Part shown: positions 1,422 to 37,687 of the stretch, piece by piece
Numbering within the stretch: the stretch's first letter is position 1
Layout of the letters: every line of letters begins with the position of its first letter
From: a virus
Length of the DNA stretch: 46,328 nt
Virus record (IMG/VR): IMGVR_UViG_3300018481_000032
Span: 1-46,328 of that record
Reading direction: 5' to 3' (one strand)
Position numbers and translations under genes: made by a program
The notes under the pieces: model-generated
What the model saw: the letters and a program-made list of their open reading frames with translations, nothing else
Told to the model about the DNA's origin: nothing
The model's database searches: none

Positions 1422-1456
1422 TTCGCAAGATCCACATGGGTTGTAATGAGACCTAC
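1422..1456 (+). promoter_or_regulatory. Conserved early element (copy 1 of 9)
   Basis: TTCGCA, 14 bases, then TGTAATGAGACCTAC. Within the 14-base spacer an RCA triplet sits at positions 7-9, as in every copy. TGTAAT is one base from the -10 consensus, which suggests a promoter; the ATG of the next gene is about 26 bases beyond TGTAAT. Confidence 0.75.
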
Positions 1457-1472
1457 TACCCAAGGAGACCAC

Positions 1473-1604
1473 ATGAAGCACATCAAGCGTTTCTTCGTCA
1501 ACCTGTTCGGTGTGGAGCCCATGACCAACCGTCTGGACGCCTACCTGCAGCACGTTGACGAGCAGCGCCGGATGCCCGCCAAGCAGTGGAAGACTTTCGA
1601 GTAA
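1473..1604 (+). CDS. Small basic protein
   Basis: This 43-residue protein is of unknown function. It is expressed from element copy 1, with AAGGAGACC ahead of the ATG. The N-terminus MKHIKRFFVNLFGVEP is a short basic-amphipathic helix that could touch a membrane; the rest is polar and charged. It is a single-gene cassette: element, ribosome site, gene, then an intrinsic terminator seven bases after the stop. Similar small cassettes occur at 2323, 34886 and 36407. Confidence 0.65.
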   Translation: MKHIKRFFVNLFGVEPMTNRLDAYLQHVDEQRRMPAKQWKTFE

Positions 1605-1611
1605 CCCTCAC

Positions 1612-1641
1612 AGACAGGTGCCTACACGGCATCTGTCTTTT
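1612..1641 (+). terminator. Intrinsic terminator
   Basis: The stem AGACAGGTGCC pairs with GGCATCTGTCT (11 pairs, one G-U) around a five-base loop and ends in TTTT. It closes the cassette at 1473 and stands three bases before the next conserved element. Confidence 0.85.
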
Positions 1642-1643
1642 AC

Positions 1644-1678
1644 CACGCAATATCTACACGGCTTGTAATGAGACCTAC
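1644..1678 (+). promoter_or_regulatory. Conserved early element (copy 2 of 9)
   Basis: CACGCA, 14 bases with ACA at positions 7-9, then TGTAATGAGACCTAC. It lies directly between a terminator and the gene at 1693, as expected of a promoter. Confidence 0.75.
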
Positions 1679-1692
1679 TAGAAAGGACCATT

Positions 1693-1923
1693 ATGGCCGC
1701 CACCGATTCAACCGAGTTCGTTGTTGCTATCCACAACATCCTGACCATCGGCGCGGATCTCGTCGAATTGTTGAACAGAGATGTACGCCCTGAAACCCAG
1801 GAAACGGTATCCGCTGTCACAACAGTCGTCGAGACCCAAGCCCGACTGATCAGAATGCTGACGGAGAGCCAGCTCGAACTGACGGACAAGATCGACGACA
1901 TCGTCGCCAGATACTCCGACTAG
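1693..1923 (+). CDS. Hypothetical helical protein
   Basis: This 76-residue protein of unknown function is driven by element copy 2. The ATG follows GAAAGG by 6 bases. The sequence is almost entirely predicted helix with a heptad-like spacing of Leu, Ile and Val (for example IGADLVELLNRDV and LIRMLTESQLELTDKIDDIV), so a small coiled coil or helical bundle is likely. It has no membrane segment and no known motif. A terminator begins ten bases after its stop. Confidence 0.7.
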   Translation: MAATDSTEFVVAIHNILTIGADLVELLNRDVRPETQETVSAVTTVVETQARLIRMLTESQLELTDKIDDIVARYSD

Positions 1924-1932
1924 CCCCTCAAG

Positions 1933-1960
1933 ACCAAGTGCCCCAAGGCATTTGGTTTTT
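1933..1960 (+). terminator. Intrinsic terminator ahead of the acetyltransferase gene
   Basis: ACCAAGTGCC pairs with GGCATTTGGT (ten pairs, one G-U) and is followed by TTTT. The next gene starts 14 bases downstream with its own ribosome site and no visible promoter between, so the hairpin may act as a leaky attenuator. Confidence 0.85.
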
Positions 1961-1973
1961 CCTAAGGAGAACT

Positions 1974-2282
1974 ATGAAGACATCATCACATTGGTACCGC
2001 TCCGCTCAGGTCAAGCTATGTGAGTGGGACGAAGGCCCAGCGGTTCTTACGGGTATGCACTCTGAGCAGAAGAACCAGGGTCATGCTTCTGAGCTGATGG
2101 AGCAGATATGCCGGGTGTTCGACACCATGGGCATGACCGTTTTACTCGATGCCCAGCCGTATGGAAAGCGTAAGGACGGTCTCGATCAGAAACAGCTGAT
2201 CAAGTTCTACGAGAAATACGGCTTCAAAGTCGCCGACGCAGACCACGGACAGATCTTGATGGAGCGTACCCCTCGCACCTGA
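1974..2282 (+). CDS. GNAT-family N-acetyltransferase
   Basis: This 102-residue protein resembles the acetyl-CoA binding half of the GNAT fold. It has the motif A pattern Q-x-x-G-x-A (EQKNQGHASEL, about residues 31-41) followed by a helix, then QLIKFYEKYGF (75-85), which is the usual C-terminal FYxxxGF helix-turn of the family. GNAT enzymes transfer an acetyl group from acetyl-CoA to an amine; the substrate here is unknown and could be a host or phage protein, or a small molecule. The ATG has TAAGGAGAA ahead of it. It is shorter than most GNATs (about 140-160 residues), so the N-terminal strand set is minimal. Confidence 0.75.
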   Translation: MKTSSHWYRSAQVKLCEWDEGPAVLTGMHSEQKNQGHASELMEQICRVFDTMGMTVLLDAQPYGKRKDGLDQKQLIKFYEKYGFKVADADHGQILMERTPRT

Positions 2283-2306
2283 AACATGGCCTGTAATGAG
2301 ACCTAC
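2272..2306 (+). promoter_or_regulatory. Conserved early element (copy 3 of 9)
   Basis: CTCGCA, 14 bases with ACA at positions 7-9, then TGTAATGAGACCTAC. Unlike the other copies it overlaps the last codons of the preceding gene. Confidence 0.75.
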
Positions 2307-2322
2307 TACCGAAAGGAAAACC

Positions 2323-2505
2323 ATGAACAGGTTCCTGACCAACCTCCGCCGTCAGGCCGAGGAGAACCCCGTCATCGCCATCGGCGTGGGAGCAGCCGCA
2401 GTCACCGCACTGTCCAAGCTCCTATCCGCCAGCAACGAGAACCGGAACTCCAAGGCCTGGGCTAAGGAAGTCAACCGACGCGTGGCAACCAGCCGCTACA
2501 AGTAG
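2323..2505 (+). CDS. Small single-pass membrane protein
   Basis: This 60-residue protein of unknown function has a basic N-terminus (MNRFLTNLRRQ), one hydrophobic Ala/Val-rich segment (about residues 17-38) and a polar basic tail. That suggests one membrane helix. It is expressed from element copy 3 with GAAAGGA before the ATG, and is followed by an intrinsic terminator. Its layout resembles the gene at 36407, which also has a short Ala/Val helix followed by a polar tail behind the same element. Confidence 0.65.
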   Translation: MNRFLTNLRRQAEENPVIAIGVGAAAVTALSKLLSASNENRNSKAWAKEVNRRVATSRYK

Positions 2506-2514
2506 TCCCACAAG

Positions 2515-2541
2515 AGCTAAGTCCCACGGGATTTAGCTTTT
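2515..2541 (+). terminator. Intrinsic terminator
   Basis: AGCTAAGTCCC pairs with GGGATTTAGCT (one G-U, very tight loop) and ends in TTTT. Element copy 4 starts two bases later. Confidence 0.85.
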
Positions 2542-2542
2542 G

Positions 2543-2577
2543 CTCGCATGGATCGCACGGGTTGTAATGAGACCTAC
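2543..2577 (+). promoter_or_regulatory. Conserved early element (copy 4 of 9)
   Basis: CTCGCA, 14 bases with GCA at positions 7-9, then TGTAATGAGACCTAC. It is abutted by a terminator upstream and a ribosome site downstream. Confidence 0.75.
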
Positions 2578-5592: not shown

Positions 5593-6094
5593 GTACCACT
5601 GGGTAAACTACTCAGACGAGAAGCTCGACCGTATGTTCATGGGTGCCATGACTGCACAACGAGGGAGTGAGCTTCACGCCTTCGCAGAGATGGCTATTCG
5701 TTTGGGACAGAAGATGCCTACCAAGCGAACAACCATGAACATGTATGTGAATGAGGCTATCGGGTACCGCATGACACCTGAGGTTCTTCTTCACTACTCA
5801 GACAACTGCTTCGGAACTGCAGACGCTGTCTCTTTCCGTGCAAACAGGCTGAGAATTCATGACCTTAAGAATGGGGTCACCGCAACGTCCATGATGCAGC
5901 TCAAGATCTATGCTGCGTTGTTCTGCCTCGAGTACCGGTTCAAGCCGGTCGACATCAACATCGAGCTGCGCATCTACCAGAACAACGATGTCATCACCGA
6001 GATCCCTGATCCCGACGAGATCACCCACATCATGGACAAGATCATTTCGTTCGACAAGCGCATCAACGCAATCCGAATGGAGGCAATGTCGTGA
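5534..6094 (+). CDS. RecB/Cas4-like PD-(D/E)xK exonuclease
   Basis: This 186-residue protein carries the ordered RecB-like nuclease motifs: RGSELHAFAE (43-52, E46 and H48), GTADAV (94-99, D97), HDLKNG (109-114, D110 and K112) and QLKIY (122-126, the QxxxY motif). Such proteins degrade or process DNA ends and in phages act in recombination or replication. The ATG at 5534 has AAGGAAG 6 bases before it, although it lies inside the end of the VRR-NUC gene. The gene overlaps the next by four bases (GTGA), so the two nucleases and the polymerase-like gene form one translationally coupled set. No RecT-like annealing partner is visible. Confidence 0.85.
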   Translation: MLFNKHSDLVGRHAFLSASKYHWVNYSDEKLDRMFMGAMTAQRGSELHAFAEMAIRLGQKMPTKRTTMNMYVNEAIGYRMTPEVLLHYSDNCFGTADAVSFRANRLRIHDLKNGVTATSMMQLKIYAALFCLEYRFKPVDINIELRIYQNNDVITEIPDPDEITHIMDKIISFDKRINAIRMEAMS

Positions 6095-8769
6095 TCATCG
6101 AAGAGGATGACTACTTGGCGCACTACGGCATCCTCCGCAGGTCGGGCAGGTACCCGTGGGGTTCTGGTGGATCTGTAAACGTTCGGAGTCGAAACTTCCT
6201 TGATCACCTCGCAGAGATGCGACGTGCAGGGATGTCAGACACCGAGATCGCTCGAGGCGTTGGTATGACGAGCACTGAGTTTCGTGCAGCCAACACCATC
6301 GCCAAGAATGCTGCCCTGCAGGCAGACATCAACCAGGCTCAGCGGTTGAAGGCGAAGGGCATGTCGAACATCGCAATCGGTAAGAAGATGGAGCGGAATG
6401 AGTCATCCGTTCGTGCTCTTCTTGCATCTGGAGCAGCAGACCGCGCCAATCTCCTTCAGTCTGTGTCAACCAAGTTGCGGGATGAGGTTGACAAGAAGGA
6501 GATCATCGACATCGGTAGTGGTGTTGAGAACTGGCTTGGTGTCGCCAAGGACAAGCTGGCTGTTGCTGTAGCCATGCTCAAGGAAGAGGGCTACACGGTT
6601 CATAAGTTCAAGAACCCTCAGGTTGCCACCGGCAAGAACACTGAGTACAAGGTTCTCGCCAAGCCCGGCATGACTCAGAAGGATGTCTGGCTTCGACGCA
6701 ATGATGTGCAGCAGGTCATGGATCGTTCGGATGATGGCGGTCGTTCGTTCTCCAAGACTCTCCCGCCTCTGTCCATCAGTTCGAAGCGCCTGGCTATCCG
6801 CTACAAGGAAGATGGCGGAGACAAGCTTGACGGTGTTGTTTACGTCAGGCCTGGCGTTGCTGATCTCTCGCTCGGAGCCAAGAGGTATGCACAGGTCCGC
6901 ATTGCCATCGATGGTACTCACTACATCAAGGGTATGGCGATGTACAAGACTGACCTCCCCAAGGGTGTAGACCTCGAGTTCAACACGAACAAGACCAGCA
7001 CCGGCCGCAAGCTCGATGCGTTGAAGGAGATGGATAAGGACCCCGACAGTCCTTTCACATCTCAGATCCGTGATCAGCTCAAGTCAAGAGATCCGAAGAC
7101 AGGTGTCGAGAAAGTAACCTCGGCAATGAACATCGTCTACGGTGAAGGTGACTGGGACGATTGGTCAAAGAGCATCTCGTCGCAGGTTTTGTCCAAGCAG
7201 ACTCCCAAGCTTGCTAGGGCACAACTCGACATGACCTATCAGAGCCGAAAGAATGAGCTCGACACGATCATGGCTCTCACGAATCCGACCGTTCGTAGGC
7301 ATCTCCTCGAGAAGTTTGCGGAAACCACGGATTCTGCTTCTGTTCACATGAAGGCTGCTCATCTTCCTCGTCAGAGGTCGCAGGTCATCCTTCCAATCAC
7401 CACCATGAAGGACACTGAGGTATACGCTCCGAACTTCAAGAATGGCGAGCGTGTAGCTCTCATCCGCTATCCTCATGGCGGAACCTTCGAGATTCCTGAA
7501 CTCACTGTGAACAACAGACATCGAGATGCAAAGCGTCTTCTAGGAGATGCGCAGGATGCAATCGGTATCAACGCCAAGGTGGCAGAACGTCTTTCTGGGG
7601 CAGACTTCGATGGGGACACAGTTCTCGTCATTCCTCAGACACCTGGCCGAGAGCTGAAAACAAGCCCTGCTCTTGCTGGTCTTCAGGGATTCGACCCAAT
7701 CGCAGAATACCCTGCTTATGAGGGAATGAAGCGAATGGATTCCAGAACCAAGCAAACTCAGATGGGTCTGGTTTCGAATCTCATCACAGACATGACCATC
7801 CAAAGGGCCAGCACAGACGACATCGCTCGTGCAGTGCGGCATTCCATGGTGGTCATCGATGCAGAAAAGCACAATCTCAACTGGAAGCTTTCTGCAGAAG
7901 TAAACGGAATCGCTGCCTTGAACAAGAAGTACCAGAACCGAGCTCAGGGTGGTGCATCAACCCTGATTTCAAGAGCTAGTTCTGAGAAGCGGGTTCCTGA
8001 AAGGGTGCCCCGTTCCATGACTAGAGGTGGCCCTATAGACAAGGCCACTGGAGCATTGGTGTTTGAGCCCACCAATAGGGTGACTGTAGGCAGGGATGGC
8101 AAAATTAACCCCCGCACTACCAAGTCAACTAAGTTGGGTGAAGAAACCGATGCACATGCCCTTGTTTCAAAAGATGGGGGCACTCTCATTGAGAAGGTCT
8201 ATGCAGACCACTCAAACAAGCTCAAAGCGATGGCGAATGTTGCTAGAAAAGCCGCCGTCACCACACAAAGTACCCCCTACTCTCCCAGTGCAAAAGTGCA
8301 CTATAAGGCAGAAGTTAGTTCTCTGGTAGCTAAGCTTCATCTAGCTGTCAGTAATAGGCCTTTGGAGAGGCAAGCTCAGCTATTGGCCAATGCCAAGATC
8401 GCTGCTAAGAAAGCAGCTAATCCGAACATGGATGATGATGATCTGAAGAAGGTGAAGTACAAGGCCTTGGCTGAGGCACGTCATGCAACAGGTGCTGATA
8501 AGCAGCAGATAGACATCACTCCTACAGAGTGGGCTGCTATACAGGCTGGTGCAATCACCAATCACAGACTCACAGAGATCCTTCGTAATACAGACCTTGA
8601 TAAGGTCAAGGCTCTGGCCACACCTAGGGTAGCAACAGTGATGACAACAGCTAAGCAGAACAGAGCTAAGCAGATGCTTGCATCAGGCTACTCTGCTGCT
8701 GAAGTTGCTGAGCACCTAGGCGTCGCCGTGTCCACACTCAAGAGTAGTGTGATCAGAGAGGAAGAGTGA
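6091..8769 (+). CDS. DFDGD-motif protein, putative single-chain RNA polymerase
   Basis: This 892-residue protein has the signature SGADFDGDTVLVIP with DFDGD at 505-509, the metal-binding motif of the beta-prime double-psi barrel. RYPHGG upstream resembles the beta-prime NRAPTLH segment. HYIKGMAMYKTDLPKG (277-292, K280) resembles the beta-subunit RHGNKG region with its conserved lysine. Two-barrel single-chain polymerases are known in phages (YonO of SPbeta) and as QDE-1. It also has two helix-turn-helix-like repeats near the N-terminus (about 35-60 and 88-112) and one at the C-terminus (about 858-882). The GTG start overlaps the previous stop. Likely role: phage transcription or RNA priming. 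Activity is inferred from motifs only. Confidence 0.65.
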   Translation: MIIEEDDYLAHYGILRRSGRYPWGSGGSVNVRSRNFLDHLAEMRRAGMSDTEIARGVGMTSTEFRAANTIAKNAALQADINQAQRLKAKGMSNIAIGKKMERNESSVRALLASGAADRANLLQSVSTKLRDEVDKKEIIDIGSGVENWLGVAKDKLAVAVAMLKEEGYTVHKFKNPQVATGKNTEYKVLAKPGMTQKDVWLRRNDVQQVMDRSDDGGRSFSKTLPPLSISSKRLAIRYKEDGGDKLDGVVYVRPGVADLSLGAKRYAQVRIAIDGTHYIKGMAMYKTDLPKGVDLEFNTNKTSTGRKLDALKEMDKDPDSPFTSQIRDQLKSRDPKTGVEKVTSAMNIVYGEGDWDDWSKSISSQVLSKQTPKLARAQLDMTYQSRKNELDTIMALTNPTVRRHLLEKFAETTDSASVHMKAAHLPRQRSQVILPITTMKDTEVYAPNFKNGERVALIRYPHGGTFEIPELTVNNRHRDAKRLLGDAQDAIGINAKVAERLSGADFDGDTVLVIPQTPGRELKTSPALAGLQGFDPIAEYPAYEGMKRMDSRTKQTQMGLVSNLITDMTIQRASTDDIARAVRHSMVVIDAEKHNLNWKLSAEVNGIAALNKKYQNRAQGGASTLISRASSEKRVPERVPRSMTRGGPIDKATGALVFEPTNRVTVGRDGKINPRTTKSTKLGEETDAHALVSKDGGTLIEKVYADHSNKLKAMANVARKAAVTTQSTPYSPSAKVHYKAEVSSLVAKLHLAVSNRPLERQAQLLANAKIAAKKAANPNMDDDDLKKVKYKALAEARHATGADKQQIDITPTEWAAIQAGAITNHRLTEILRNTDLDKVKALATPRVATVMTTAKQNRAKQMLASGYSAAEVAEHLGVAVSTLKSSVIREEE

Positions 8770-8774
8770 GACAC

Positions 8775-9023
8775 ATGGTACAACACATGTTGACCACTGT
8801 TGACAATCCTTTCGATCCATTCACTCAGTTTGATGAGTGGAACGCATATGACGTAGCTGCTGGGTACAACACAACATCCTTTCTAGCAAGGGTGATTCGT
8901 ACATCAGTAGAGATGTCAGAAGCAGATCAGGATCTCGAGTATGAGTCAGCAGTTGATGAGATTGTAAGGGAGAACGTCCTTGGCCTCTATCGTAAGGTAG
9001 AAGTTTCAAGAGAAAATTCCTAA
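8775..9023 (+). CDS. Conserved phage protein (NPFDPFTQFDEW family)
   Basis: This 82-residue soluble protein belongs to a family I recognise from many siphophages by NPFDPFTQFDEWNAYD followed by GYNTTSFLARV. Its function is not established. It usually sits immediately after the DFDGD protein, as here (five bases between), so a role with that protein or in early-to-late switching is possible but unproven. The start was chosen for GAGGAAG about 10 bases upstream; GTG 8766 and ATG 8787 are alternatives. It is the last gene before the candidate packaging region. Confidence 0.8.
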   Translation: MVQHMLTTVDNPFDPFTQFDEWNAYDVAAGYNTTSFLARVIRTSVEMSEADQDLEYESAVDEIVRENVLGLYRKVEVSRENS

Positions 9024-9759: not shown

Positions 9760-10159
9760 GTCATACAGCGAGCTCTCGCAGCTTGACGGGCTGGAGGAAC
9801 GCTATTGTTACCTGGCTCTTCGGAGTGAAGTAGGGATAGCGACCTTCGGGACGGAGCGTTGGTTGAACCAGCGCTTCTACACGTCCAGAGAGTGGCGGCA
9901 ACTTCGACACTTCGTCATCGTTCGTGACCAAGGATGCGATCTGGCAGTTCCAGGATTCGACATTCACACGAAGCTTATCATCCACCACATGAACCCTGTG
10001 ACGGTCGATGACATCACAGATGGTGATGGGTCAATACTCGATCCTGAGTACCTCATCACCACAACTCTTCGTACGCACAACGCCATTCACTACGGAGACG
10101 AGCGACAGCTTCCACGTCAACTCGTTCCTCGTCGTCTTGGCGACACACAACTATGGTAG
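9752..10159 (+). CDS. HNH endonuclease
   Basis: This 135-residue protein has an HNH core in its C-terminal half: CDLAVPGFDIHTKLIIHHMN, then DPEYLITTTLRTHNAIHYG, with the paired His, the central Asn and the final His in order. Before it is a WRQLRHFVIVRDQG segment typical of phage HNH proteins encoded beside terminases. In HK97-like phages such enzymes help terminase cut at cos. The start ATG overlaps the stop of the preceding gene, so the two are coupled. There are no zinc-binding CxxC pairs. Confidence 0.85.
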   Translation: MIRSYSELSQLDGLEERYCYLALRSEVGIATFGTERWLNQRFYTSREWRQLRHFVIVRDQGCDLAVPGFDIHTKLIIHHMNPVTVDDITDGDGSILDPEYLITTTLRTHNAIHYGDERQLPRQLVPRRLGDTQLW

Positions 10160-15260: not shown

Positions 15261-15701
15261 ATGGATGCATTGGAGAAAGTTCTCGCGCATTACGGCGTCA
15301 AGGGAATGCGTTGGGGCGTCCGTAGGCGTTCGACATCGTCAGGACCAACAGGCCACGTCACCATCAAGGCGATTCCGGGCCACAAGATCAAGGTCAGTGG
15401 CGGATCGGGCGTCAAGATCTCTGAAGACGCGGTTCGTGCTGTTGCCAACCGACAGGTTGCCAAGAAGAGCGGCACTCACGCCCTTCCCAACGACGAACTC
15501 AAGGCCCTCGTGACTCGGATGCAGATGGAGCAGAACTACAAGCAGCTCCTCGAGAAGCAGCCGAAGAGTCTCACGACTCAGGCGACCGACTTGATCATCA
15601 GCACGGGTCAGGACGAGGTTGCCAAGCTGGTCACGGGCAAAGACACCCTATTCCTCCGCCAGATCCTGGACTCGGGTGGTGGAAGGCACAGAAAGAAGTA
15701 G
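15261..15701 (+). CDS. Conserved phage protein with HYGVKGMRWGVRR motif
   Basis: This 146-residue protein begins with LAHYGVKGMRWGVRR (8-22), a short motif found at the ends of many phage structural and packaging proteins of Gram-positive hosts; its function is unknown. The remainder is basic, with helix in the C-terminal half (NDELKALVTRMQMEQNYKQL) and a final Arg/Lys tail. The ATG follows GGGAGGAGG. Its position directly before the large terminase suggests a head or packaging role. The DFDGD protein at 6091 starts with a related segment (LAHYGILRRSGRYPWGSG). Confidence 0.75.
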   Translation: MDALEKVLAHYGVKGMRWGVRRRSTSSGPTGHVTIKAIPGHKIKVSGGSGVKISEDAVRAVANRQVAKKSGTHALPNDELKALVTRMQMEQNYKQLLEKQPKSLTTQATDLIISTGQDEVAKLVTGKDTLFLRQILDSGGGRHRKK

Positions 15702-17489: not shown

Positions 17490-18767
17490 ATGGGAATCAG
17501 AGATCGTCTAGTGCATGCATGGAACGTGTTTCTCAACGACGATTACGACCAGAGAAACCCCTTCGGAGAATCAGGTTCCAGCTACAGCACCCCTCCAAGT
17601 CGGCCTCGCATTCGTATCGGCAGCGAAAGAACCATCATCGCGTCGATCTACACACGAATGGCGGTCGATGTGGCGGCAACGTCGATTCGACACGTTCGTC
17701 TCGACGACGAGAAGCGGTACAAGGAAGAGATAGAGAGTGGTCTGAACAGCTGTTTGTCTCTTGCTGCGAACTTGGACCAGCCGGGTCGAGCTTTTCGACA
17801 GGACATCGCGATGTCCTTGTTCGAGAATGGAGTTATCGCTGTTGTTCCTGTCGACACAACGATCAATCCAGACTCAAGTGGTGGTTGGGACATCTTGTCG
17901 ATGCGAGTCGGGACGATCGTGTCCTGGTTCCCGAGCAAGGTCAAGGTCAGCATCTACAACGAGCAGAATGGTCGCCGTCAAGAGGTCACTCTAGACAAGA
18001 AGTTCGTTGCGATCGTTGAGAACCCTCTCTACACCGTGATGAACGAGCCGAACTCGACTCTGCAGCGTCTCATTCGAAAGCTTGGCATCCTGGATGCCAT
18101 CGATGAGCAGTCGGGTTCGGGAAAGCTCGACATCATCATCCAACTGCCTTACGTCATCAAGTCCGAGGGCAAGCGACAGCAGGCTGAGCAACGCCGGAAG
18201 GACATCGAGTTCCAGCTGAAGGGGAGCCAGTACGGTATCGCCTACACGGACGGTACCGAGAAGGTCACCCAGCTGAACCGACCGGCCGAGAACAACCTGA
18301 TGAAGCAGATCGAGTACCTCGTCGACCTGCTCTACGCCCAGCTTGGGTTGACGCCCGAGGTGATGAACGGCACGGCTGACGAATCGGCCATGCTGAACTA
18401 CTACGACCGAACGATCAACCCTATCCTCGACGCCATCGTCGAATCGATGAGGCGGTCGTTCCTCACAAAGACTGCCCGGACCCAGGGTCAGTCGATCGAG
18501 TACTACAAGGACCCGTTCAAGCTCGTTCCGATCTCACAGATGGCCGAGATCGCCGACAAGTTCACCAGGAACGAGATCGTGTCCTCCAACGAGATGCGTC
18601 AAGCCATCGGAATGAAGCCGGCCAAGGATCCGAAGGCGGACGAGCTTCGAAACAGCAACATGCCTCAATCGGAGCTCGGCACTCCGCCTCCTGGTGGATC
18701 GAAACCAGATCCAGAAGATCCAGAAGATCCACCACCAGCGGCGGCGCCAGCCGTCCCCAAGAAGTGA
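17490..18767 (+). CDS. Portal protein
   Basis: This 425-residue protein follows the terminase and precedes the protease-capsid gene, the standard position for the ring at the capsid vertex that connects motor and tail. Typical features are the early helix ASIYTRMAVDVAATS (about 52-66), the wing/stem region, and the conserved loop YLVDLLYAQLGLTPEVMNGT (about 271-290). The tail end is a disordered Pro-rich stretch (PPPGGSKPDPEDPEDPPP), common in portals of this type. The ATG follows GGAAGGGGGTGA. Confidence 0.9.
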   Translation: MGIRDRLVHAWNVFLNDDYDQRNPFGESGSSYSTPPSRPRIRIGSERTIIASIYTRMAVDVAATSIRHVRLDDEKRYKEEIESGLNSCLSLAANLDQPGRAFRQDIAMSLFENGVIAVVPVDTTINPDSSGGWDILSMRVGTIVSWFPSKVKVSIYNEQNGRRQEVTLDKKFVAIVENPLYTVMNEPNSTLQRLIRKLGILDAIDEQSGSGKLDIIIQLPYVIKSEGKRQQAEQRRKDIEFQLKGSQYGIAYTDGTEKVTQLNRPAENNLMKQIEYLVDLLYAQLGLTPEVMNGTADESAMLNYYDRTINPILDAIVESMRRSFLTKTARTQGQSIEYYKDPFKLVPISQMAEIADKFTRNEIVSSNEMRQAIGMKPAKDPKADELRNSNMPQSELGTPPPGGSKPDPEDPEDPPPAAAPAVPKK

Positions 18768-18782
18768 AAGGAGACTGTCAAA

Positions 18783-20837
18783 ATGGAAGCAGATTTCAGC
18801 GGCTGGGCGACCAAGGTCGGCATCGAGTGCACTGACGGCCGCACCATCATGCGCGATGCCTTCAAGCACCAGGACACACAGCGTGTTCCGCTTGTCTGGC
18901 AGCACGGACACAAGGACCCGGAGAACGTTCTGGGCCACGTCGTCCTCGAGAACCGGTCGGAGGGTGTGTACTGCTACGGCTACTTCAACGACACGCCCAA
19001 GGCCAAGAACACGAAGCTCATCGTCGAGCACAAGGACGTCGAGGCTCTGTCGATCTGGGCGAACAAGCTCAAGGAGCAGGCTCGCAGCGTCATTCACGGT
19101 TCGATCCGTGAGGTCAGTCTAGTTCTGTCGGGTGCAAACCCGGGGGCCCTGATCGACCAGGTTCGCATCGCTCACGGTGACGGAACCGACGACTACGACG
19201 TCCTCGAGGACGAGGCCTTCATCTACACGGGTCTTCCGCTCGAGCACGAGGCCGGTCCTTCGGACGAGCTCACCGTGCAGGACGTCTACGACTCCATGAC
19301 GGATGAGCAGAAGCTCGTCGTCGCGCACATGGTGGAGACGGCTCTCGAGGCTCAGGTTCAGCACGCCGACGAGGACAACAAGCCCGAGGGTGAAGAGCCC
19401 GACGGAGACAAGCCCGAGGGTGAAGAGCCCGAAGGAGACAAGCCCGAGGGTGACAAGCCCGAAGGAGAGCAGGACGGAGCGTCCGAAGGGGACGACGCCG
19501 GCACCACCGACGACACCAAAACCGAGGACTCCCTCGACCACCAGGAAGGTTCAGACATGACCCGCAACGTCTTCGATCAGAGTGACGCCGACACCGAGCG
19601 CCGGAACGGCCCCACCCTGTCGCACGACCAGCTCTCCACCATCGTGGACGACGGCTGGAAGATGGGCTCCTTCAAGGAGTCGCTCCTCGCCCACGCGGAG
19701 GAGTACGGCATCACCAACATCGAGCTCCTCTTCCCCGAGGCGCGGATGATCGACAACAAGCCGGAGTGGATCACTCGCCGGATGGAGTGGGTCACCACGG
19801 TGCTCGGCGGCGTCCGCAAGCTCCCGTACAGCCGCATCAAGTCGATGTCGGCTGACCTCACGCACGAAGAGGCGCGGGCCAAGGGCTACATCAAGGCCAC
19901 GATGAAGAAGACGCAGTTCTTCGAGCTCGCCGGCCGAGAGACCACCCCGAAGACCATCTACAAGAAGCAGCAGCTGGACCGGGACGACATCGTCGACATC
20001 ACGGAGCTCGACGTCGTCAACTGGATCTGGGGCGAGATGCGCTTCATGCTGAACGAGGAGATCGCGCGCGCGATCCTCGTCGGCGACGGTCGCGAGCCCG
20101 ACGACCCCGACAAGATCAACGAGAACAACATTCGTCCGATCGCTCAGGACGCGACGTTCTACACGGACGTCGTCGACCTGCCGGCGAACATCAGCCCCGA
20201 GGCCCTCGTCGAGACCGTCATCCGGTCCCGCGAGCTCTACAAGGGTGCTGGCAACCCGGACGCCTTCATGACCCGTTCGATCCTGAACGACATGCTCCTC
20301 CAGAAGGACAAGATGGGCCGCCGGCTCTACCGCAACCGCACCGAGCTGGCAGCGGAGCTCGAGGTCAACTCCATCACGGACGTTCCGGCGATGGAGGGTG
20401 TCACCCGCGACGAGGGAGAGATCCAGATCCTTCTGGTCAACCTCTCCGACTACTCGGTCGGCACCACCAAGGGCGGCGAGATCTCGACGTTCGACGACTT
20501 CGACATCGACTACAACCAGTACAAGTACCTGATCGAGGGCCGGATGTCCGGCGCGCTGACGAAGCACAAGACTGCACAGGTCTTCGTGCGTGCGGACGGC
20601 ACCCTCGTGACGGCGGACCTGACGGCGCCGACGTTCAACACCAGCACCGGCGTCCTGACCGTTCCGACCCAGACCGGTGTGGTCTACCGCAACGCCGAGA
20701 CGGACGCAGTCCTGACCGCCGGTGCGCAGACCGCCATCGCGGCGGGTGCTTCGGTCGAGGTCGAGGCAGTCCCGGCCACCGGGTACTACTTCGAGCACAA
20801 CATCGACACGGACTGGTCGTTCACCCGCAACCCGTAA
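18783..20837 (+). CDS. Prohead protease-major capsid protein fusion
   Basis: This 684-residue fusion joins the head maturation protease and HK97-fold coat protein. Residues 1-130 look like the protease: QHGHKDP (40-46) and HGSIREVSLVLSGANPGA (105-122). Residues about 180-255 are an acidic low-complexity linker that may serve as scaffold. The coat protein spans about 259-615, with the N-arm and E-loop regions at its start. The last 65 residues are an Ig-like domain ending DTDWSFTRNP. An in-frame ATG at 19557 (residue 259) has AGGAAGG 7 bases upstream and could give free coat protein. The codon choice is strongly GC-ending, fitting high expression. Confidence 0.85.
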   Translation: MEADFSGWATKVGIECTDGRTIMRDAFKHQDTQRVPLVWQHGHKDPENVLGHVVLENRSEGVYCYGYFNDTPKAKNTKLIVEHKDVEALSIWANKLKEQARSVIHGSIREVSLVLSGANPGALIDQVRIAHGDGTDDYDVLEDEAFIYTGLPLEHEAGPSDELTVQDVYDSMTDEQKLVVAHMVETALEAQVQHADEDNKPEGEEPDGDKPEGEEPEGDKPEGDKPEGEQDGASEGDDAGTTDDTKTEDSLDHQEGSDMTRNVFDQSDADTERRNGPTLSHDQLSTIVDDGWKMGSFKESLLAHAEEYGITNIELLFPEARMIDNKPEWITRRMEWVTTVLGGVRKLPYSRIKSMSADLTHEEARAKGYIKATMKKTQFFELAGRETTPKTIYKKQQLDRDDIVDITELDVVNWIWGEMRFMLNEEIARAILVGDGREPDDPDKINENNIRPIAQDATFYTDVVDLPANISPEALVETVIRSRELYKGAGNPDAFMTRSILNDMLLQKDKMGRRLYRNRTELAAELEVNSITDVPAMEGVTRDEGEIQILLVNLSDYSVGTTKGGEISTFDDFDIDYNQYKYLIEGRMSGALTKHKTAQVFVRADGTLVTADLTAPTFNTSTGVLTVPTQTGVVYRNAETDAVLTAGAQTAIAAGASVEVEAVPATGYYFEHNIDTDWSFTRNP
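19380..19469 (+). repeat. Three tandem 30-bp repeats in the capsid fusion linker
   Basis: Units start at 19380, 19410 and 19440. They encode KPEGEEPDGD, KPEGEEPEGD and KPEGDKPEGE. The repeats are in frame and lie in the acidic linker between protease and coat domains, so copy-number change would alter only linker length. Confidence 0.9.
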
Positions 20838-20852
20838 CCAGAAGGGCCCGAC

Positions 20853-21182
20853 ATGGCGAAGTTCTCAGGGAAAGTCGGGTACGGAGAGAACGTCAAAACC
20901 GCTCCTGGAGTATGGGCCGACGTCATCACCGAGAAGTCATATTTCGGAGATGTCATTCGGAATGTACGACAGTTGCGAGAGGCTCCGGAAAGTCTCAACA
21001 ACGATCTCTCTGTCAGCAACTCAATCTCCATCGTTGCTGACGCGTACGCGAACGAGCACTTCCACGCCATCAGGTATGTCGAGTGGGCGGGGGCTCTGTG
21101 GACGGTTTCAGACGTCGAAGTCCAGAGTCCCCGCCTTCTACTGCGGCTAGGAGGTGTTTACAATGGCCCGAGGGCGGTCTGA
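20853..21182 (+). CDS. Head-tail connector (head-closure type)
   Basis: This 109-residue beta-rich protein lies directly after the capsid gene. It begins FSGKVGYGENVKTAPGVW, followed by a long-loop strand (DLSVSNSISIVADAYA) and RYVEWAGALWTVSDVEVQ, the pattern of small beta-barrel head-closure proteins that seal the portal. I infer the role from position and strand layout. The ATG follows AGAAGGGCCC. It overlaps the next gene by 20 bases. Confidence 0.75.
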   Translation: MAKFSGKVGYGENVKTAPGVWADVITEKSYFGDVIRNVRQLREAPESLNNDLSVSNSISIVADAYANEHFHAIRYVEWAGALWTVSDVEVQSPRLLLRLGGVYNGPRAV

Positions 21183-21471
21183 GCTTCAAGCACTTTTGGA
21201 AGCTCTTCTGGGGTCAGACAACGTCTACTTCCAGCCTCCAACCAACACCATCATGCAGTATCCGTGCATCGTCTTCAAGCGAGACAGAGAATCGGTGCAG
21301 CATGCTGACAATCGCCGCTATCGGCACACCAAGGGGTACCAGGTCACCATCATCACAAAGGATGTCGACAGCGACATTCCTGAGAAGGTGGCAGAGTTGC
21401 CGTTGTGTTCCTTCGACAGGTTCTTCACGGCAGAAAACCTCAACCACGATGTCTACATCCTCTTCTTCTGA
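21163..21471 (+). CDS. Tail terminator / head-tail joining protein
   Basis: This 102-residue protein sits between head closure and the tail tube gene, where the tail terminator is normally encoded. It has an N-terminal helix (SELQALLEALLGSDNVYF), a central strand pair (PCIVFKRDRESVQHADNRRY) and GYQVTIITKDVDSD, typical of the terminator fold that caps the tail tube. The ATG at 21163 follows AGGAGGTG. A GTG nine bases upstream overlaps that ribosome site and is rejected. The C-terminal DVYILFF is hydrophobic but short. Confidence 0.75.
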   Translation: MARGRSELQALLEALLGSDNVYFQPPTNTIMQYPCIVFKRDRESVQHADNRRYRHTKGYQVTIITKDVDSDIPEKVAELPLCSFDRFFTAENLNHDVYILFF

Positions 21472-21485
21472 AAGGAACACAAGTA

Positions 21486-22367
21486 ATGACCCAGATCCAG
21501 TGGGACCAGGTCGGTGAGCGGGTCGCAGAGACCGGTGTCGACCACGGAGTCCTGTACAAGCCCGACAACACTGGCGCCTACGTGGACGGTGTGGCCTGGA
21601 ACGGCCTGACCGCCGTCACCGAGTCGCCCAGTGGTGCCGAGGCCAACGCGCAGTACGCCGACAACATCAAGTACCTGAACCTCGTCTCGGCGGAGGAGTT
21701 CGCCGGCACGATCGAGGCCTTCACGTACCCGAAGGAGTTCGAGGAGTGCGAGGGTGCGGTCGAGAGCGCCGGTGGCGTCCTGATCACGCAGCAGGCTCGC
21801 AAGTCCTTCGGCTTCTCCTACCGCACGCTCAAGGTCAACGACGTCGACGGGAACGACTACGGCGAGAAGATCCACCTCGTCTACGGTGCTCTCGCGACGC
21901 CGTCGGAGAAGGCTCGCAGCACGGTCAACGAGTCGCCCGAGCTCACGGCTCTCAGCTGGGAGTTCTCGACCACCCCGGTCGCGGTTCCCGACCTGAAGCC
22001 GTCGGCTCACCTGGTTCTCGACTCGACGGTCGTCGGCCAGGCTGCTCTCGACGACCTCAAGGAGATCCTGTACGGCACCGAGAGCGTCGACCCGCGTCTG
22101 CCGCTGCCGGCCGAGGTGATCGACCTCTTCGAGGGGACGACCACCGACGTCGACCTGGGTGTGACGGCCAGCCAGCCGTCGTACAACTCCAGCACGCACG
22201 TGGTCACCCTGCCCTCCGTCACCGGTGTGCAGTGGAAGGTCAACGGCGTCAACAAGGCCGCGGGTGCCCAGCCGGCACTCACGGTTGGTCAGACCGCCAA
22301 CGTCGAGGCAGTGGCCCTGGCCGGCTACCGCGTCACCGGCGACGAGGACTGGTCGTTCGACTACTGA
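21486..22367 (+). CDS. Major tail tube protein with C-terminal Ig-like domain
   Basis: This 293-residue protein is the best candidate for the main tail tube subunit. It is the tube paralogue with the most GC-ending codons. The tube domain runs from about 1-220 (WDQVGERVAETGVDHGVLY, YGEKIHLVYGALATPSEKAR). The last 65 residues form an Ig-like domain (SYNSSTHVVTLPSVTGVQW ... GDEDWSFDY) related to that on the capsid protein. The ATG follows GAAAGGAACAC; an earlier in-frame start inside the terminator gene has no ribosome site. Paralogues are at 22953 and 24484. Confidence 0.85.
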   Translation: MTQIQWDQVGERVAETGVDHGVLYKPDNTGAYVDGVAWNGLTAVTESPSGAEANAQYADNIKYLNLVSAEEFAGTIEAFTYPKEFEECEGAVESAGGVLITQQARKSFGFSYRTLKVNDVDGNDYGEKIHLVYGALATPSEKARSTVNESPELTALSWEFSTTPVAVPDLKPSAHLVLDSTVVGQAALDDLKEILYGTESVDPRLPLPAEVIDLFEGTTTDVDLGVTASQPSYNSSTHVVTLPSVTGVQWKVNGVNKAAGAQPALTVGQTANVEAVALAGYRVTGDEDWSFDY

Positions 22368-28800: not shown

Positions 28801-31161
28801 ATATTCCTCGTGCTTGCTGTAGGAGCGAAGCTTCTGGGACCAGCAGTTCCGGTTCTCGTTGCTCTGGCAGGAGCAGTTGCGTTGCTGGGTCTCGCTGTGG
28901 CTCTGATCGGAGGGGGAATGTTCCTCTTCGCTGCAGGCCTGGCAACCTTGGCAGCGTCGGGTATGGCTGGTGTCGCTGTGCTCACAGCAGCGGTCATCGC
29001 CTTCGCTCAGCTGCTTCCTCTGATCGCGCTGCAATTCGGCTTGGCCATTCGTGCCCTGGCCGCAGCGATCGGTGGATCTGGCCCAGAGTTGGTGGCGGCA
29101 TTCAGCGCAGTGCTGGGTGCTCTCATCCAGGCGGTTACCAACAACATCCCGAAGTTCGCCAGAATGCTACTGACGCTGATCACCTATGGGCTCGCTGTCA
29201 TCAGGGCAGCGTTCCCGCAGGTGTTGGCTACGGGCATCTCGATGATCATGACCCTGCTCAAGGGGATCGAGAACAATATCGGTAAGGTCGTTACCACCGT
29301 CGGCAAGATCATCGTCAAGTTCATCCAAGCCTTGGGTAAGCAGGTCCCCAAGATCATTGACGCTGGTGCCCAGATGATCCTCGATCTCATTCGGGGTCTG
29401 GCCGATGCCATCGACAAGTACGACGACCAGCTCATCGACGCCGGTTGGGATCTGGCGGAAGCCATCATCACTGGCATGCTCAAGGGACTTGCAGAAGGCC
29501 CGAAGCGAATTGCTGGTGCTGCTTGGAATCTCGGTAAGTCTGCACTCGGTGGAATCGCCGACGCCATCAAGTCGAAGTCTCCTTCGAAGGAAGCGGAAAA
29601 GCTGGGTCGATACGTCGGCCAAGGTTTCGCGATCGGAGTTGTCGGAAGCACAGAGGACGTCAATAAGTCCCTCGAGTTCATGAAGAGCCAGATCACGGCT
29701 GCATTCGAGGATACCGAGTCCAAGCTCAAGGAGAAGCAGGACGAGCTCGCTCGGCTCACAAAGGCGAAGAAGGGTGACACTCCCGAGGCTAAAAAGCTCG
29801 AGAAGCAGATCGCCACCCTGAAGACGCTTCACGCGAATGCTGCCAATGCCCGTAAGGTCTTCAACAAGGACTTGAAGGACGAGCAGGGAGAACTTCGTAA
29901 GCTTGCCGCGCAGTACGACAAGACTACGAAGAAGCTGGAAGAGGCAAACAAGAAGTTGGACGAGGCCAAGAAGGCCAAAGAAGACTTCGCCAAGAGCACA
30001 ACAGCTAAGTACTCTGCTGGACCAGCCATCGGAGAGGATGAGAACACTTCGTTCTCTTCGTTCGCCGACAAGGCTTACGAGGCTGAGCAGGCGATCGAGA
30101 AGTTCCAGAAGACGCTTACCACCCTCAAGAAGAGAGGGTTGAGCGACACTGCGTACAACAAGCTTCTGGAAGAAGGTGTGGGTGCCCAAGGCTTCCTCGA
30201 CAAGATCATGGAGGATGGCAAGAAGGGTATCGCCGAACTGAACTCTCTCGGTGAGCAGTTCTCTGCTCAGAAGCACACCGCTCTTGACCAGTACTTGGCC
30301 GGAGTCGAGAAGGAAGCTGCAGACGTCGAGAAGTTCAAGGCGTCGCTCGACCAGCTCAAGGCTTTGGGCTTGGACGATGCCTCTTACCGCAAGTTGGTGG
30401 AGGAGGGTCCGAGTGCACAGCCGTTCGTAGACCAGCTCCTCGCAAGCGGAGCCGGTGGCGTCAACCAGCTCAACGCGTTGAATGCTCGTCTTGCCGCGGC
30501 AGCAACTTCCCTCGGGGAGGAGGCCGCACGGGTTCTTTACCAGGGCGGCATCGACTCGGCACAGAAGACTGTGGACGGTCTCGTCGACGGTCTCAACAAC
30601 CCCACCAGCATCAAGGCGCTCGAAAGAGCAATGGCGCGGGTTGCACGCAAGATGGTCAAGGCTCTGAAGAAGGAGCTGAAGATCAAGTCGCCGTCCAGGG
30701 TTGGTATGGACATCGGCAAGTTCTTCAACCTCGGTGTTTCTGGAGGTCTCGACAAGTACACGAAGGTGGTTGAGAAGTCGGCAGAGACCATGGCCAACTC
30801 GGCTGTGGACACGATCAAGAAGACCATGACCGGACTTTCGAGCATGGCCTTGACCGATGTCAACATGAATCCGGTGATCGCTCCGGTAATCGACCTGACT
30901 CAGGCAGAGAAGGATGCGGCGGCCCTGAACAAGATGCTGGCCGTGAACGCAGAAGTGTCATACGCGCAAGCGCAAGGGATATCTTCGGAGCAGCAGACAG
31001 CTTCGCAGACCCCAGGCACTACTGAGTCCGCTACTCAGGCACCGACCACGGTGGTTGAGTACACGCAGAACAACTACTCGCCCAAGGCGTTGTCTGAGGT
31101 CGAGATCTTCCGCAACACTCGGAACAGTCTATCGCTAGTAAGGGAGGCCTTGAACGCATGA
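25801..31161 (+). CDS. Tape measure protein
   Basis: This 1786-residue protein sets tail length. At about 0.15 nm per residue it suggests a tail near 270 nm (inference). The N-terminal 350 residues carry the usual tape-measure fold (FENTQFERAATQTMGTMDKL). A long block of hydrophobic Ala/Leu/Gly helices (about 715-1130) would sit in the tube and later the membrane. A Lys/Glu coiled coil is near 1300-1400, followed by two related segments of about 80 residues. SKSPSKEAEKLG and IKSPSRVGMDIG motifs flank them. No lysozyme or peptidase domain is evident. The start overlaps the previous stop (ATGA); an ATG 21 bases upstream is a weaker option. Confidence 0.95.
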   Translation: MSSSVDSRIVSMKFENTQFERAATQTMGTMDKLKKTLDPAGLSKGLSTVQKTLNGTNLSVLEGGVTRISKKFLALGTVAVTALTRITNSAIDAGTRLIKSLTIAPIQKGLKEYETTLNSVQTILANTGLKGQKGLDKVNGALKNLNDYSDKTIYNFSEMARNIGTFTAAGIKLKPATSAIKGIANLAAVSGSSAEQASTAMYQLSQALASGSVKLMDWNSVVNAGMGGKVFQESLKATARAHGVAVDSIIKKSGSFRESLKEGWLDKTILTDTLKQFAGEYSKADLIAQGFSQKQAQRILEMGKTATDAATKVKTMSQLINTLQETAGSGWAQTWQLIFGNFGEAKSLFTGLNDTLGGIIKANADARNKLLGDWKKLGGRTDLIEGIKNIWEALLSVIRPIKEAFRDIFPAMTGKRLAELTENFREFTEKLTLSGPAADALKRIFTGVFAVFDIGWRILKGVIGSFFSMFGVVNNGTGGVLELVASIADVVTAFRDWLVEGDKIGQVFQYLRDARDQTLVPLVNLVSKLAEAFAELVSGGGAAFGEKLSSAFGNIGPIIGAVLDNIEELINKLTGGIGKIDLSGIFGDLGGGSGDAASKAIDGVSSSLEGAKDAAEGVDHAFDAVGNALVAVKDFVVRAAKGIKDAFVTVKDAITGGLGGVGMGDTLAVINTGFLTLLYLSIRKFVKQVGGTFQELKNAFKAGGGVLNQVTANLKSMQTEVRARAIFMIAAALALLAAAIYVLSKVDTAELAKGLGAVVILLGALTGAILALEAKTKGLGAGRVALLAGAMVLMAGAVLLLSGAVALLGQMDSATLAKGLGSVTAILGIIVAASAVLSKTGGAAQMVAAAAAIGILAVSLTLFAGALKLYASLDTMMMLEGGLKAALAIAAIGIAMRALPKDMLKSAASLAIVSASLLVIAGAMKIFATMSVEDMAKSLIMLGGSLMIISVALKAMEKSVKGAAALLLVSAALAVLVPTLVILGNLDVTTIATALGALAGIFLVLAVGAKLLGPAVPVLVALAGAVALLGLAVALIGGGMFLFAAGLATLAASGMAGVAVLTAAVIAFAQLLPLIALQFGLAIRALAAAIGGSGPELVAAFSAVLGALIQAVTNNIPKFARMLLTLITYGLAVIRAAFPQVLATGISMIMTLLKGIENNIGKVVTTVGKIIVKFIQALGKQVPKIIDAGAQMILDLIRGLADAIDKYDDQLIDAGWDLAEAIITGMLKGLAEGPKRIAGAAWNLGKSALGGIADAIKSKSPSKEAEKLGRYVGQGFAIGVVGSTEDVNKSLEFMKSQITAAFEDTESKLKEKQDELARLTKAKKGDTPEAKKLEKQIATLKTLHANAANARKVFNKDLKDEQGELRKLAAQYDKTTKKLEEANKKLDEAKKAKEDFAKSTTAKYSAGPAIGEDENTSFSSFADKAYEAEQAIEKFQKTLTTLKKRGLSDTAYNKLLEEGVGAQGFLDKIMEDGKKGIAELNSLGEQFSAQKHTALDQYLAGVEKEAADVEKFKASLDQLKALGLDDASYRKLVEEGPSAQPFVDQLLASGAGGVNQLNALNARLAAAATSLGEEAARVLYQGGIDSAQKTVDGLVDGLNNPTSIKALERAMARVARKMVKALKKELKIKSPSRVGMDIGKFFNLGVSGGLDKYTKVVEKSAETMANSAVDTIKKTMTGLSSMALTDVNMNPVIAPVIDLTQAEKDAAALNKMLAVNAEVSYAQAQGISSEQQTASQTPGTTESATQAPTTVVEYTQNNYSPKALSEVEIFRNTRNSLSLVREALNA

Positions 31162-33984: not shown

Positions 33985-34332
33985 ATGAATTCTTTCCTGA
34001 GCAACAAGGCGTATGACGCCCTGAAGTTCGTCGCGCAGATCGTTCTGCCGGCACTCGGGACCTTGTACGCCACGGTGTCTGGCCTCATGGGGTGGCCGAA
34101 CACCGAGGAGGTCGTCGGAATCATCATCGCCGTGGACTTGTTCCTGGGCACGCTTCTTGGTCTCTCCACCAAGGCCTACAACAACAGCGACGAGAAGTAC
34201 GACGGCGAGATCAACGTCGTGGAACAGCCCGACGGTCGGACCTTGATGGACATGCAGCTCAATAAGGTCGAGGACCCGACGGAGATCATCGACAAGAAGG
34301 AGGTCCTGTTCCGCGTGAACGGGGCCGAGTAG
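33985..34332 (+). CDS. Holin
   Basis: This 115-residue protein is the best holin candidate. It has the actinophage holin layout: an N-terminal helix SNKAYDALKFVAQIVLPALG (about 5-24), LYATVSGLMGWPNTEEVVGI, a second membrane helix GIIIAVDLFLGTLLGLSTKA (about 43-62), then YNNSDEKYDGEINV and a charged tail. It would make the membrane holes that release the endolysin. The ATG follows TAGGGGACTGCT. It is the last gene of the late block, 24 kb from the endolysin gene; the first element of the second early cluster begins 14 bases after its stop. Confidence 0.85.
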   Translation: MNSFLSNKAYDALKFVAQIVLPALGTLYATVSGLMGWPNTEEVVGIIIAVDLFLGTLLGLSTKAYNNSDEKYDGEINVVEQPDGRTLMDMQLNKVEDPTEIIDKKEVLFRVNGAE

Positions 34333-34345
34333 TCGCGCTGTAGTG

Positions 34346-34380
34346 GTCGCGAGCTCTACATCCCTTGTAATGAGACCGCC
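34346..34380 (+). promoter_or_regulatory. Conserved early element (copy 5 of 9)
   Basis: GTCGCG, 14 bases with ACA at positions 7-9, then TGTAATGAGACCGCC. It marks the switch from the late block to the second cluster of small-gene cassettes. Confidence 0.75.
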
Positions 34381-34397: not shown

Positions 34398-34682
34398 ATG
34401 TTCAACTCGAAGTCCCGCGAGGAGACAGGGCTCGAGAAGGCCATAGATGGCTTGCTCTCTGAAATGAAAGGATTTACCGCAGATACGAAGGAGTACTCCG
34501 CGATGGCGGACCAACTGGAGAAGCTTTACAAGCTCAAGGATATAGACAAGCCTGAGCGAGTGAAGCCCGACACGTTGGCCATCATCGCCGGCAACCTCCT
34601 CGTCGCTGTGGTGATCGTGACATACGAGAGCAAGAACATCTTGACTTCGAAAGCCCTGAGCTTCCTCCAGAAGACTCGATAG
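34398..34682 (+). CDS. Small membrane-anchored helical protein
   Basis: This 94-residue protein is driven by element copy 5, with AGAAGGAGAG before the ATG. It is mostly charged helix (about 1-55) followed by one hydrophobic segment (TLAIIAGNLLVAVVIVTYES, about 59-78) and a short basic tail. It looks like a membrane-anchored coiled coil. The function is unknown. It opens a region in which most small genes encode one membrane helix. Confidence 0.7.
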   Translation: MFNSKSREETGLEKAIDGLLSEMKGFTADTKEYSAMADQLEKLYKLKDIDKPERVKPDTLAIIAGNLLVAVVIVTYESKNILTSKALSFLQKTR

Positions 34683-34758: not shown

Positions 34759-34800
34759 GGCGCCTACATGGCTTGTAAAAATTGCTACGAACGAGATCCC

Positions 34801-34832: not shown

Positions 34833-34867
34833 TTCGCGAAAAACGCAAGCCTTGTAATGAGACCTAC
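34833..34867 (+). promoter_or_regulatory. Conserved early element (copy 6 of 9)
   Basis: TTCGCG, 14 bases with GCA at positions 7-9, then TGTAATGAGACCTAC. A degenerate half-copy (ACA, five bases, TGTAAA) lies 65 bases upstream near 34766. Confidence 0.75.
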
Positions 34868-35079: not shown

Positions 35080-35109
35080 CTCGCGAGAATTACAAGCCTT
35101 GTAATGAGA
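35080..35109 (+). promoter_or_regulatory. Conserved early element (copy 7 of 9), without a coding gene behind it
   Basis: CTCGCG, 14 bases with ACA at positions 7-9, then TGTAATGAGA. Unlike the others it is followed by a compact RNA fold ending in a T-run rather than by a ribosome site. Confidence 0.75.
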
Positions 35110-35167
35110 AGTAAGGTGCCTCACGCACCCTTCACCCGCCAGTGAAGATCACTTCTCATCTCTTTTT
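35105..35167 (+). ncRNA. Putative small structured RNA (three-way junction)
   Basis: An outer perfect stem (TGAGAAGT 35105-35112, ACTTCTCA 35151-35158) encloses two perfect hairpins: GGTGC/GCACC (35115-35119, 35125-35129) and CTTCAC/GTGAAG (35130-35135, 35142-35147). TCTCTTTTT follows. No reading frame fits the segment. It may be a small RNA or an elaborate terminator. The outer stem overlaps the TGTAATGAGA box, so the transcript start decides which. Confidence 0.5.
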
Positions 35168-36354: not shown

Positions 36355-36389
36355 CTCGCGAGAAAAACACGGTCTGTAATGAGATCCTC
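36355..36389 (+). promoter_or_regulatory. Conserved early element (copy 8 of 9)
   Basis: CTCGCG, 14 bases with ACA at positions 7-9, then TGTAATGAGATCCTC. It is the only coding-gene copy with ATCC after GAG. Confidence 0.75.
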
Positions 36390-37634: not shown

Positions 37635-37669
37635 CTCGCGGAGAACACACGTCTTGTAATGAGACCTAC
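37635..37669 (+). promoter_or_regulatory. Conserved early element (copy 9 of 9)
   Basis: CTCGCG, 14 bases with ACA at positions 7-9, then TGTAATGAGACCTAC. It starts only four bases after the stop of the preceding gene. Confidence 0.75.
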
Positions 37670-37687
37670 CCTACGAAAGGAATGATT

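Follow-up and report, generated by a model that had tools for sequence, protein, structure and literature searches.

Which RNA polymerase reads a short element that recurs before small genes in a phage genome is the question raised by a viral DNA of 46,328 nt (IMG/VR record IMGVR_UViG_3300018481_000032, positions 1 to 46,328), referred to here in its full length as the window. The element has the form YCGCR-N6-RCA-N5-TGTAATGAGA, and the same genome encodes a single-chain two-barrel RNA polymerase (6091-8769). Sequence comparisons within the window, among related phages and against cellular genomes indicate that the element is very probably a promoter read by this phage-encoded enzyme. At unchanged spacing it recurs in almost all related phages examined, whose hosts range from Streptomyces to Lactococcus. 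A previous sequence-only reading of the window had suggested either a phage-specific promoter or a promoter plus operator. The former is strongly supported by an element that is strand-locked, lies before small genes and non-coding RNAs, is nearly absent from bacterial genomes and is tied to a phage polymerase; for the latter no support was obtained.

Nine copies of the element in the window

A pattern search of the whole window returned exactly nine matches, all on the + strand and in invariant register (Table 1). Dinucleotide shuffles of the window gave a mean of 0.18 matches, and none of 100 shuffles reached nine. In the whole record TGTAATGAGA was present nine times on the forward strand and never on the reverse strand. 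The nine copies were rediscovered at 20-30 bits by a profile trained on other genomes, the best opposite-strand site scoring -8.5. The nine copies in fixed register of the sequence-only reading were thereby borne out, with corrections of detail: each of the first four copies starts one position later than had been given; the spacing of the three boxes is kept in all copies, as had been stated, but the YCGCR box in eight of nine; the continuation CCTAC follows six copies instead of seven (CCGCC at 34347, AGTAA at 35081 and TCCTC at 36356); and small genes are preceded by eight of the nine copies, the copy at 35081 standing before a structured non-coding RNA.

The flanks of the copies diverge while the element sequence stays conserved. 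At 34764-34785, CTACATGGCTTGTAAAAATT resembles a decayed copy lacking the TCGC box and TGAGA. De novo expectation-maximization motif discovery on the window alone recovered only the ribosome-binding site; the evidence for the window copies therefore comes from the pattern and from the leave-one-out profile. DNA BLAST with the motif region found no relatives; the structural genes of the window phage resemble those of Streptomyces, Gordonia and Arthrobacter phages.

Table 1. Element copies, structured RNA and polymerase genes of the window. Bit scores are those of the profile from other genomes; aa, amino acids; ORF, open reading frame.
Feature	Position	Strand	Proposed +1	Context	Bits
Promoter element copy 1	1423..1454	+	A1446	spans -23 to +9; before 43-aa ORF 1473-1604	25.5
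Promoter element copy 2	1645..1676	+	1668	ACGCA variant; before 76-aa ORF 1693-1923	25.4
Promoter element copy 3	2273..2304	+	2296	before 60-aa ORF 2323-2505	21.9
Promoter element copy 4	2544..2575	+	2567	before 79-aa ORF 2594-2833	23.7
Promoter element copy 5	34347..34378	+	34370	adjoins 3′ side of holin gene 33985-34332; before 94-aa ORF 34398-34682	20.3
Promoter element copy 6	34834..34865	+	34857	before 51-aa ORF 34886-35041	26.6
Promoter element copy 7	35081..35112	+	35104	at head of structured non-coding RNA	29.6
Promoter element copy 8	36356..36387	+	36379	before 63-aa ORF 36407-36598	28.0
Promoter element copy 9	37636..37667	+	37659	before 126-aa ORF 37670-38050	27.2
Structured non-coding RNA	35104..35167	+		9-bp closing stem ATGAGAAGT/ACTTCTCAT, 5′ arm formed by the motif; two inner hairpins; then T-rich tract	
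Single-chain two-barrel RNA polymerase, proposed element reader	6091..8769	+		892 aa; phrog_4291 (E = 0)	
phrog_4303 protein, candidate partner	8766..9023	+		85 aa; overlaps polymerase stop codon; in 27/28 relatives	

The element in related actinophages

The exact string TGTAATGAGACCTAC gave 19 single matches in IMG/VR, which is consistent with chance; the spelling is peculiar to the window, and only a generalised pattern finds the sites of relatives. In the Streptomyces phages RosaAsantewaa and Rima, ATGAGACCCC and TATAGTGAGA were among the most over-represented 10-mers, and the sequence around them gave the full TCGCA-N6-ACA-N5-TATARTGAGACCCCTAC, likewise ahead of small genes and with the same spacing. 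The generalised element TCGCR-n-R-WWWW-ACA-n-G-S-C-Y-TATA-R(+1?)-TGAGACC is common to the whole phage group, and 39 of 46 polymerase-bearing records match the actinophage pattern at least once. In 150 aligned sites, information was located in the boxes TCGCR, ACA, TATART and GAGACC, in a purine and A/T-rich spacer ahead of ACA and in a G/C-rich spacer behind it, with a purine at the R of TATART in 97% of sites. Leave-one-genome-out profiles for 26 genomes yielded 224 sites, all of them on the gene strand and 0 on the opposite one, and reversed controls gave none. The sites cluster after the genes for tail and lysis proteins, with spacings that are often about 350 bp, and the structural module of the window has none. 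The Arthrobacter phage Paella (MT771347.1) has 33 copies, most of which form an array with one copy about every 300 bp (37648-48012 and beyond).

Dispersed repeats of conserved sequence with divergent flanks could also represent a site for protein binding or recombination that has no promoter activity, such as an operator, a stoperator, or an origin-associated or mobile repeat. The strict orientation with the genes (224:0), the fixed position before genes and RNAs and the clustering after the lysis genes leave this explanation scarcely credible. A translation-level or 5′ untranslated region element, like the 13-bp start-associated sequences of cluster K mycobacteriophages, would agree with the 20-50 nt found between most copies and a start codon (median from TATART, 33 nt). 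However, this distance varies from about 10 to 140 nt, the conserved region extends 23 nt upstream of the predicted RNA start, and some copies stand before structured RNAs without an ORF, all of which makes a role in translation just as hard to accept.

Confinement to polymerase-bearing phages

The strict pattern was found in at least 120 IMG/VR stretches and in 5 of the 84,980 cellular genomes of the GTDB set. One of the cellular matches is a 4-kb contig (QHXL01000552.1) with five copies, binned into an Acidobacteria metagenome-assembled genome and evidently phage DNA. A 43-nt consensus matched 149 of 50,697 phage records, exclusively phages of Gordonia, Streptomyces, Arthrobacter, Rhodococcus and Microbacterium, and no plasmid. 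Compared at the level of the host genus, all 149 records come from genera that also have polymerase-bearing phages. All 33 virus contigs of 40 kb or more with the motif encode the polymerase, and the motif-bearing contigs without it were pieces of 31-39 kb. The apparent exceptions Count (13 copies) and Paella were checked individually, and both encode the polymerase. By these comparisons the motif is confined to polymerase-encoding phages, as would be the case for the promoter of a phage RNA polymerase. Phages with related core genes but without the polymerase were sought as a negative control, and none was usable (MT835495 encodes the polymerase).

The phage-encoded RNA polymerase

The active-site motif ADFDGD of the polymerase is located at residues 504-509 within the signature SGADFDGD; it is invariant in 58 sequences and conforms to the catalytic motif DxDGD. 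In one relative, a weak Pfam match to RNA-dependent RNA polymerases falls at the same place. An AlphaFold2 model based on 42 homologues had a predicted local distance difference test score (pLDDT) of 80 and a predicted template modelling score (pTM) of 0.61. The best solved fold matches were QDE-1 (E = 2e-8), the gp64 RNA polymerase of P23-45-group phages (E = 2e-7) and plant RDR2, so that fold similarity to QDE-1 and gp64 was found, though with low template modelling (TM) scores. A helix-turn-helix (HTH) domain is present at the C-terminus (residues 853-891), and the model and the relatives have HTH-like units within the first 111 residues, near 29-111. In relatives the HTH domains resemble sigma region 4. 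The enzyme is encoded in 250 phage records, usually labelled 'helix-turn-helix DNA-binding domain protein' or 'RNA-dependent RNA polymerase', and no role or promoter was found assigned to it in these records. A DNA-dependent phage RNA polymerase is probably hidden behind both labels.

The gene of the phrog_4303 protein overlaps the polymerase gene and is nearly as widespread (Table 1), which would suit a mechanism in which another phage protein, sigma-like or an appropriation factor, redirects the host polymerase, or in which the phage polymerase needs a partner. Such a mechanism is improbable, as no sigma-like Pfam or PHROG match was obtained among the conserved proteins tested and the polymerase has HTH domains of its own; a required partner would, moreover, leave the main claim unchanged.

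Diverged elements and co-variation with the polymerase

Phages with distant polymerases gave few or no matches to the actinophage pattern. By de novo and register-guided searches, diverged elements of the same register, box-N6-WCA-N5-TWTW-RTGA, were found in Lactococcus and Faecalibacterium phages, whose polymerases are 37-43% identical. The elements read TTTTA-N6-ACA-TACCC-TATAATGA in Lactococcus phage P118, TCACA-N6-ACA-N5-TATAGTAGA in CHPC971 and ACGCG-N6-WCA-N5-CTTTATGA in Faecalibacterium phage FP_oengus; the IMG/VR genome G018 has TCGCA-N6-ACA-N5-TATTATGG. Since the register is kept in phages of hosts from two phyla, the simplest reader would be a phage-borne rather than a host-borne factor.

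The distance between motifs correlated with the distance between polymerases (Mantel r = 0.70). In partial Mantel tests the correlation with the RNA polymerase persisted given the DNA polymerase (r = 0.52, p = 0.001), and that with the DNA polymerase given the RNA polymerase was r = 0.08 (p = 0.24). Within the usual limits of Mantel tests the motif therefore co-varies with the polymerase. This supports the polymerase as the reader, although not decisively, because the compared genomes are related and a single rival gene was considered.

All 28 compared genomes share with the window a helicase, two nucleases, the DNA polymerase, a DUF6353 protein and the RNA polymerase, the last being the sole transcription protein of this set. 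Two DUF6353 proteins are encoded in the window (35484-36284 and 38775-39668), the second of which was matched in all 28 relatives. The products of genes directly behind the window elements were present in 0-3 of the 28 genomes, so that the promoter is retained while its cargo turns over.

Structured RNAs and the start of transcription

Several element copies, in the window and in relatives, head structured RNAs without an ORF. In the RNA of the window, AUGAGAAGU pairs with ACUUCUCAU to form a 9-bp stem enclosing two hairpins (-22.8 kcal/mol, z = -7.0; none of 200 shuffles was as stable). The +2 to +9 box paired with its own downstream arm at 10 sites, compared to 1.7 for permuted boxes (sd 1.3, maximum 7 in 200). 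As part of RNA stems TGAGA is very probably transcribed, so that the start would lie no further downstream than the R of TATART.

Structured RNAs of relatives were located in Hydrus (33291/33432), Poco6 (42668/43098), Niktson (30919-31161), Ingrid (30853/31102) and Giantsbane (30161/30311). They often adjoin each other, each with its own promoter copy and T-rich end, and similar ones are found again in phages of Gordonia and Rhodococcus and also among Arthrobacter phages. Some have tRNA-like T-arms (GGTTCGAATCC), and one is a real tRNA. At the Rfam gathering score, this tRNA was the only match in the relatives, no family was assigned to the other structured RNAs, and none was found in the window.

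The stems bear on the possibility that the element is a host sigma-A promoter with TATAAT as -10 and no -35, served by a phage activator at TCGCR-N6-ACA. The median of 33 nt to the start codon would fit such a promoter too. However, sigma-70 would start about seven bases downstream of TATAAT and so exclude TGAGA from the transcript, against which the stems indirectly argue. No -35 is present 16-18 nt upstream of the -10, the positions upstream of TCGCR holding at most about 0.2 bits in the 150 aligned sites, and sigma-70-like sites in both motif regions were at chance level. The rule of an A at -11 is broken by the G of TGTAAT in all nine window copies, and some relatives have other spellings such as CTTTAT or TTAAAT, so that the combination of A at position 2 and T at position 6 expected of a -10 is not maintained. 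Together with the near-absence of the element from cellular genomes and the constant register across hosts from two phyla, these findings make a sigma-A promoter very improbable. The hexamer TGTAAT, whose resemblance to a -10 had been remarked on earlier, is better taken as TGTA (-4 to -1) with the initiating A behind it.

Several points nevertheless weigh against the assignment of the element to the phage polymerase. TATAAT, the 3′-box consensus in most relatives, does fit a host -10. The TM-scores of the fold matches were low (0.26-0.33 of the query), and the enzyme has no sequence or profile match to YonO, the single-chain polymerase of Bacillus phage SPbeta (PHROG 4291 versus 8308). The polymerase is co-inherited with other core genes, so that association alone cannot rule out another core protein, and the Mantel tests compare relatives, with one rival gene only and with sites found by a related profile. 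Finally, intrinsic terminators were not above chance in a simple scan of the window, and for this reason no terminators are claimed for its coding units. Weighing both sides, we strongly infer that the element is directly recognised by this polymerase.

Proposed mechanism and possible virion carriage

As to which domain reads which box and where exactly the RNA begins, we infer the following course. The built-in HTH domains would probably let the polymerase bind duplex DNA at the upstream boxes TCGCR and ACA. The enzyme would then melt TATA at -4 to -1 (TGTA in the window phage) and initiate at the purine that follows, giving RNAs that start with 5′-R-UGAGACC. Each copy would drive one short unit, either a structured RNA or a small gene that evolves fast.

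Whether the polymerase travels in the virion appears about evenly balanced. In Lactococcus phage 1706 the homologous protein, orf75, is 37% identical and carries the annotation 'structural protein'. The N-terminus LAHYGILRRSGRYPWGSG of the polymerase resembles a tag, LAHYGVKGMKWG, on proteins whose genes lie between those for terminase and portal, and one of these proteins is annotated as a virion structural protein. The N-terminal LAHYG(V/I)...WG is possibly a virion-packaging tag. It occurs in the window at 6091-6150 (polymerase) and 15261-15335, and in Poco6 in proteins near terminase and portal (17605-21957); the other tagged protein of the window belongs to Pfam DUF7211. If the polymerase enters with the DNA, these promoters would be used first, and the element-driven genes are tentatively regarded as the first to be expressed.

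The most far-reaching version of this proposal, possible but as a whole somewhat less likely than not, is that a self-sufficient, virion-carried polymerase with built-in sigma-like HTH domains reads one promoter of T7-like geometry that phages of both Actinobacteria and Firmicutes have retained. Without the host RNA polymerase it would switch on, before all other phage genes, arrays of one-gene cassettes that are interchangeable, together with RNAs that are structured or tRNA-like. The element delimits the cassettes of small genes and non-coding RNAs that the polymerase would drive. A promoter of 32 nt would make the enzyme directly testable and could serve for expression independent of the host in Streptomyces, Gordonia, Arthrobacter and Rhodococcus.

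Comparison with known systems

Promoters of phage polymerases are already known from T7, N4 and P23-45. The gp64 enzyme of the P23-45 group is likewise a single-chain two-barrel phage polymerase with phage-specific promoter motifs, one of which occurs only in enzyme-carrying relatives. Its likeness to the window polymerase is one of fold and not of sequence, and the window element is derived from sequence only. The consensus CTATA-RTGAGACC (-5 to +8) resembles the T7 promoter sequence CTATA-GGGAGACC: both are short fixed-register elements with TATA just before the start, which for the window element is the predicted one. The upstream boxes of the T7 promoter have no likeness to the window element, and the fold of T7 polymerase is unrelated to two-barrel enzymes; the resemblance may reflect convergence or chance. 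The gp66 protein of the crAss-like phage phi14:2 is a two-barrel single-chain polymerase carried in the virion. It belongs to another family and another host, and for the window enzyme a virion location is only hinted at.

In the open-access literature, no paper on these phages giving the motif string was found among the matches listed, and a search for related actinophage work found no description of the element. Within the literature as searched, new is a probable promoter for a polymerase family without a previously assigned promoter, with an unusually wide host range. The likeness to the start-associated sequences of cluster K mycobacteriophages that had been drawn for the window does not hold: these are also repeated intergenic elements before small genes, but their extended form has SigA-like -35/-10 hexamers 17-18 bp apart and an inverted repeat (PMC11373665), whereas the window element has no -35 signal.

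YonO is a single-chain phage DNA-dependent RNA polymerase whose promoter sequence was stated as undetermined (PMC5467207). SPbeta does not encode phrog_4291, and a search for the element around yonK/yonN found nothing convincing. Upstream of yonK (about 10040-10060, - strand), where the YonO start is said to lie, an 11-mer, TTACATACCCT, is shared with the element of Lactococcus phage P118, which may be chance. YonO transcribes late genes from one start, whereas the window element is scattered before small non-structural genes. The element also bears on sigma-free promoter recognition by two-barrel single-chain polymerases, a question left open for YonO.
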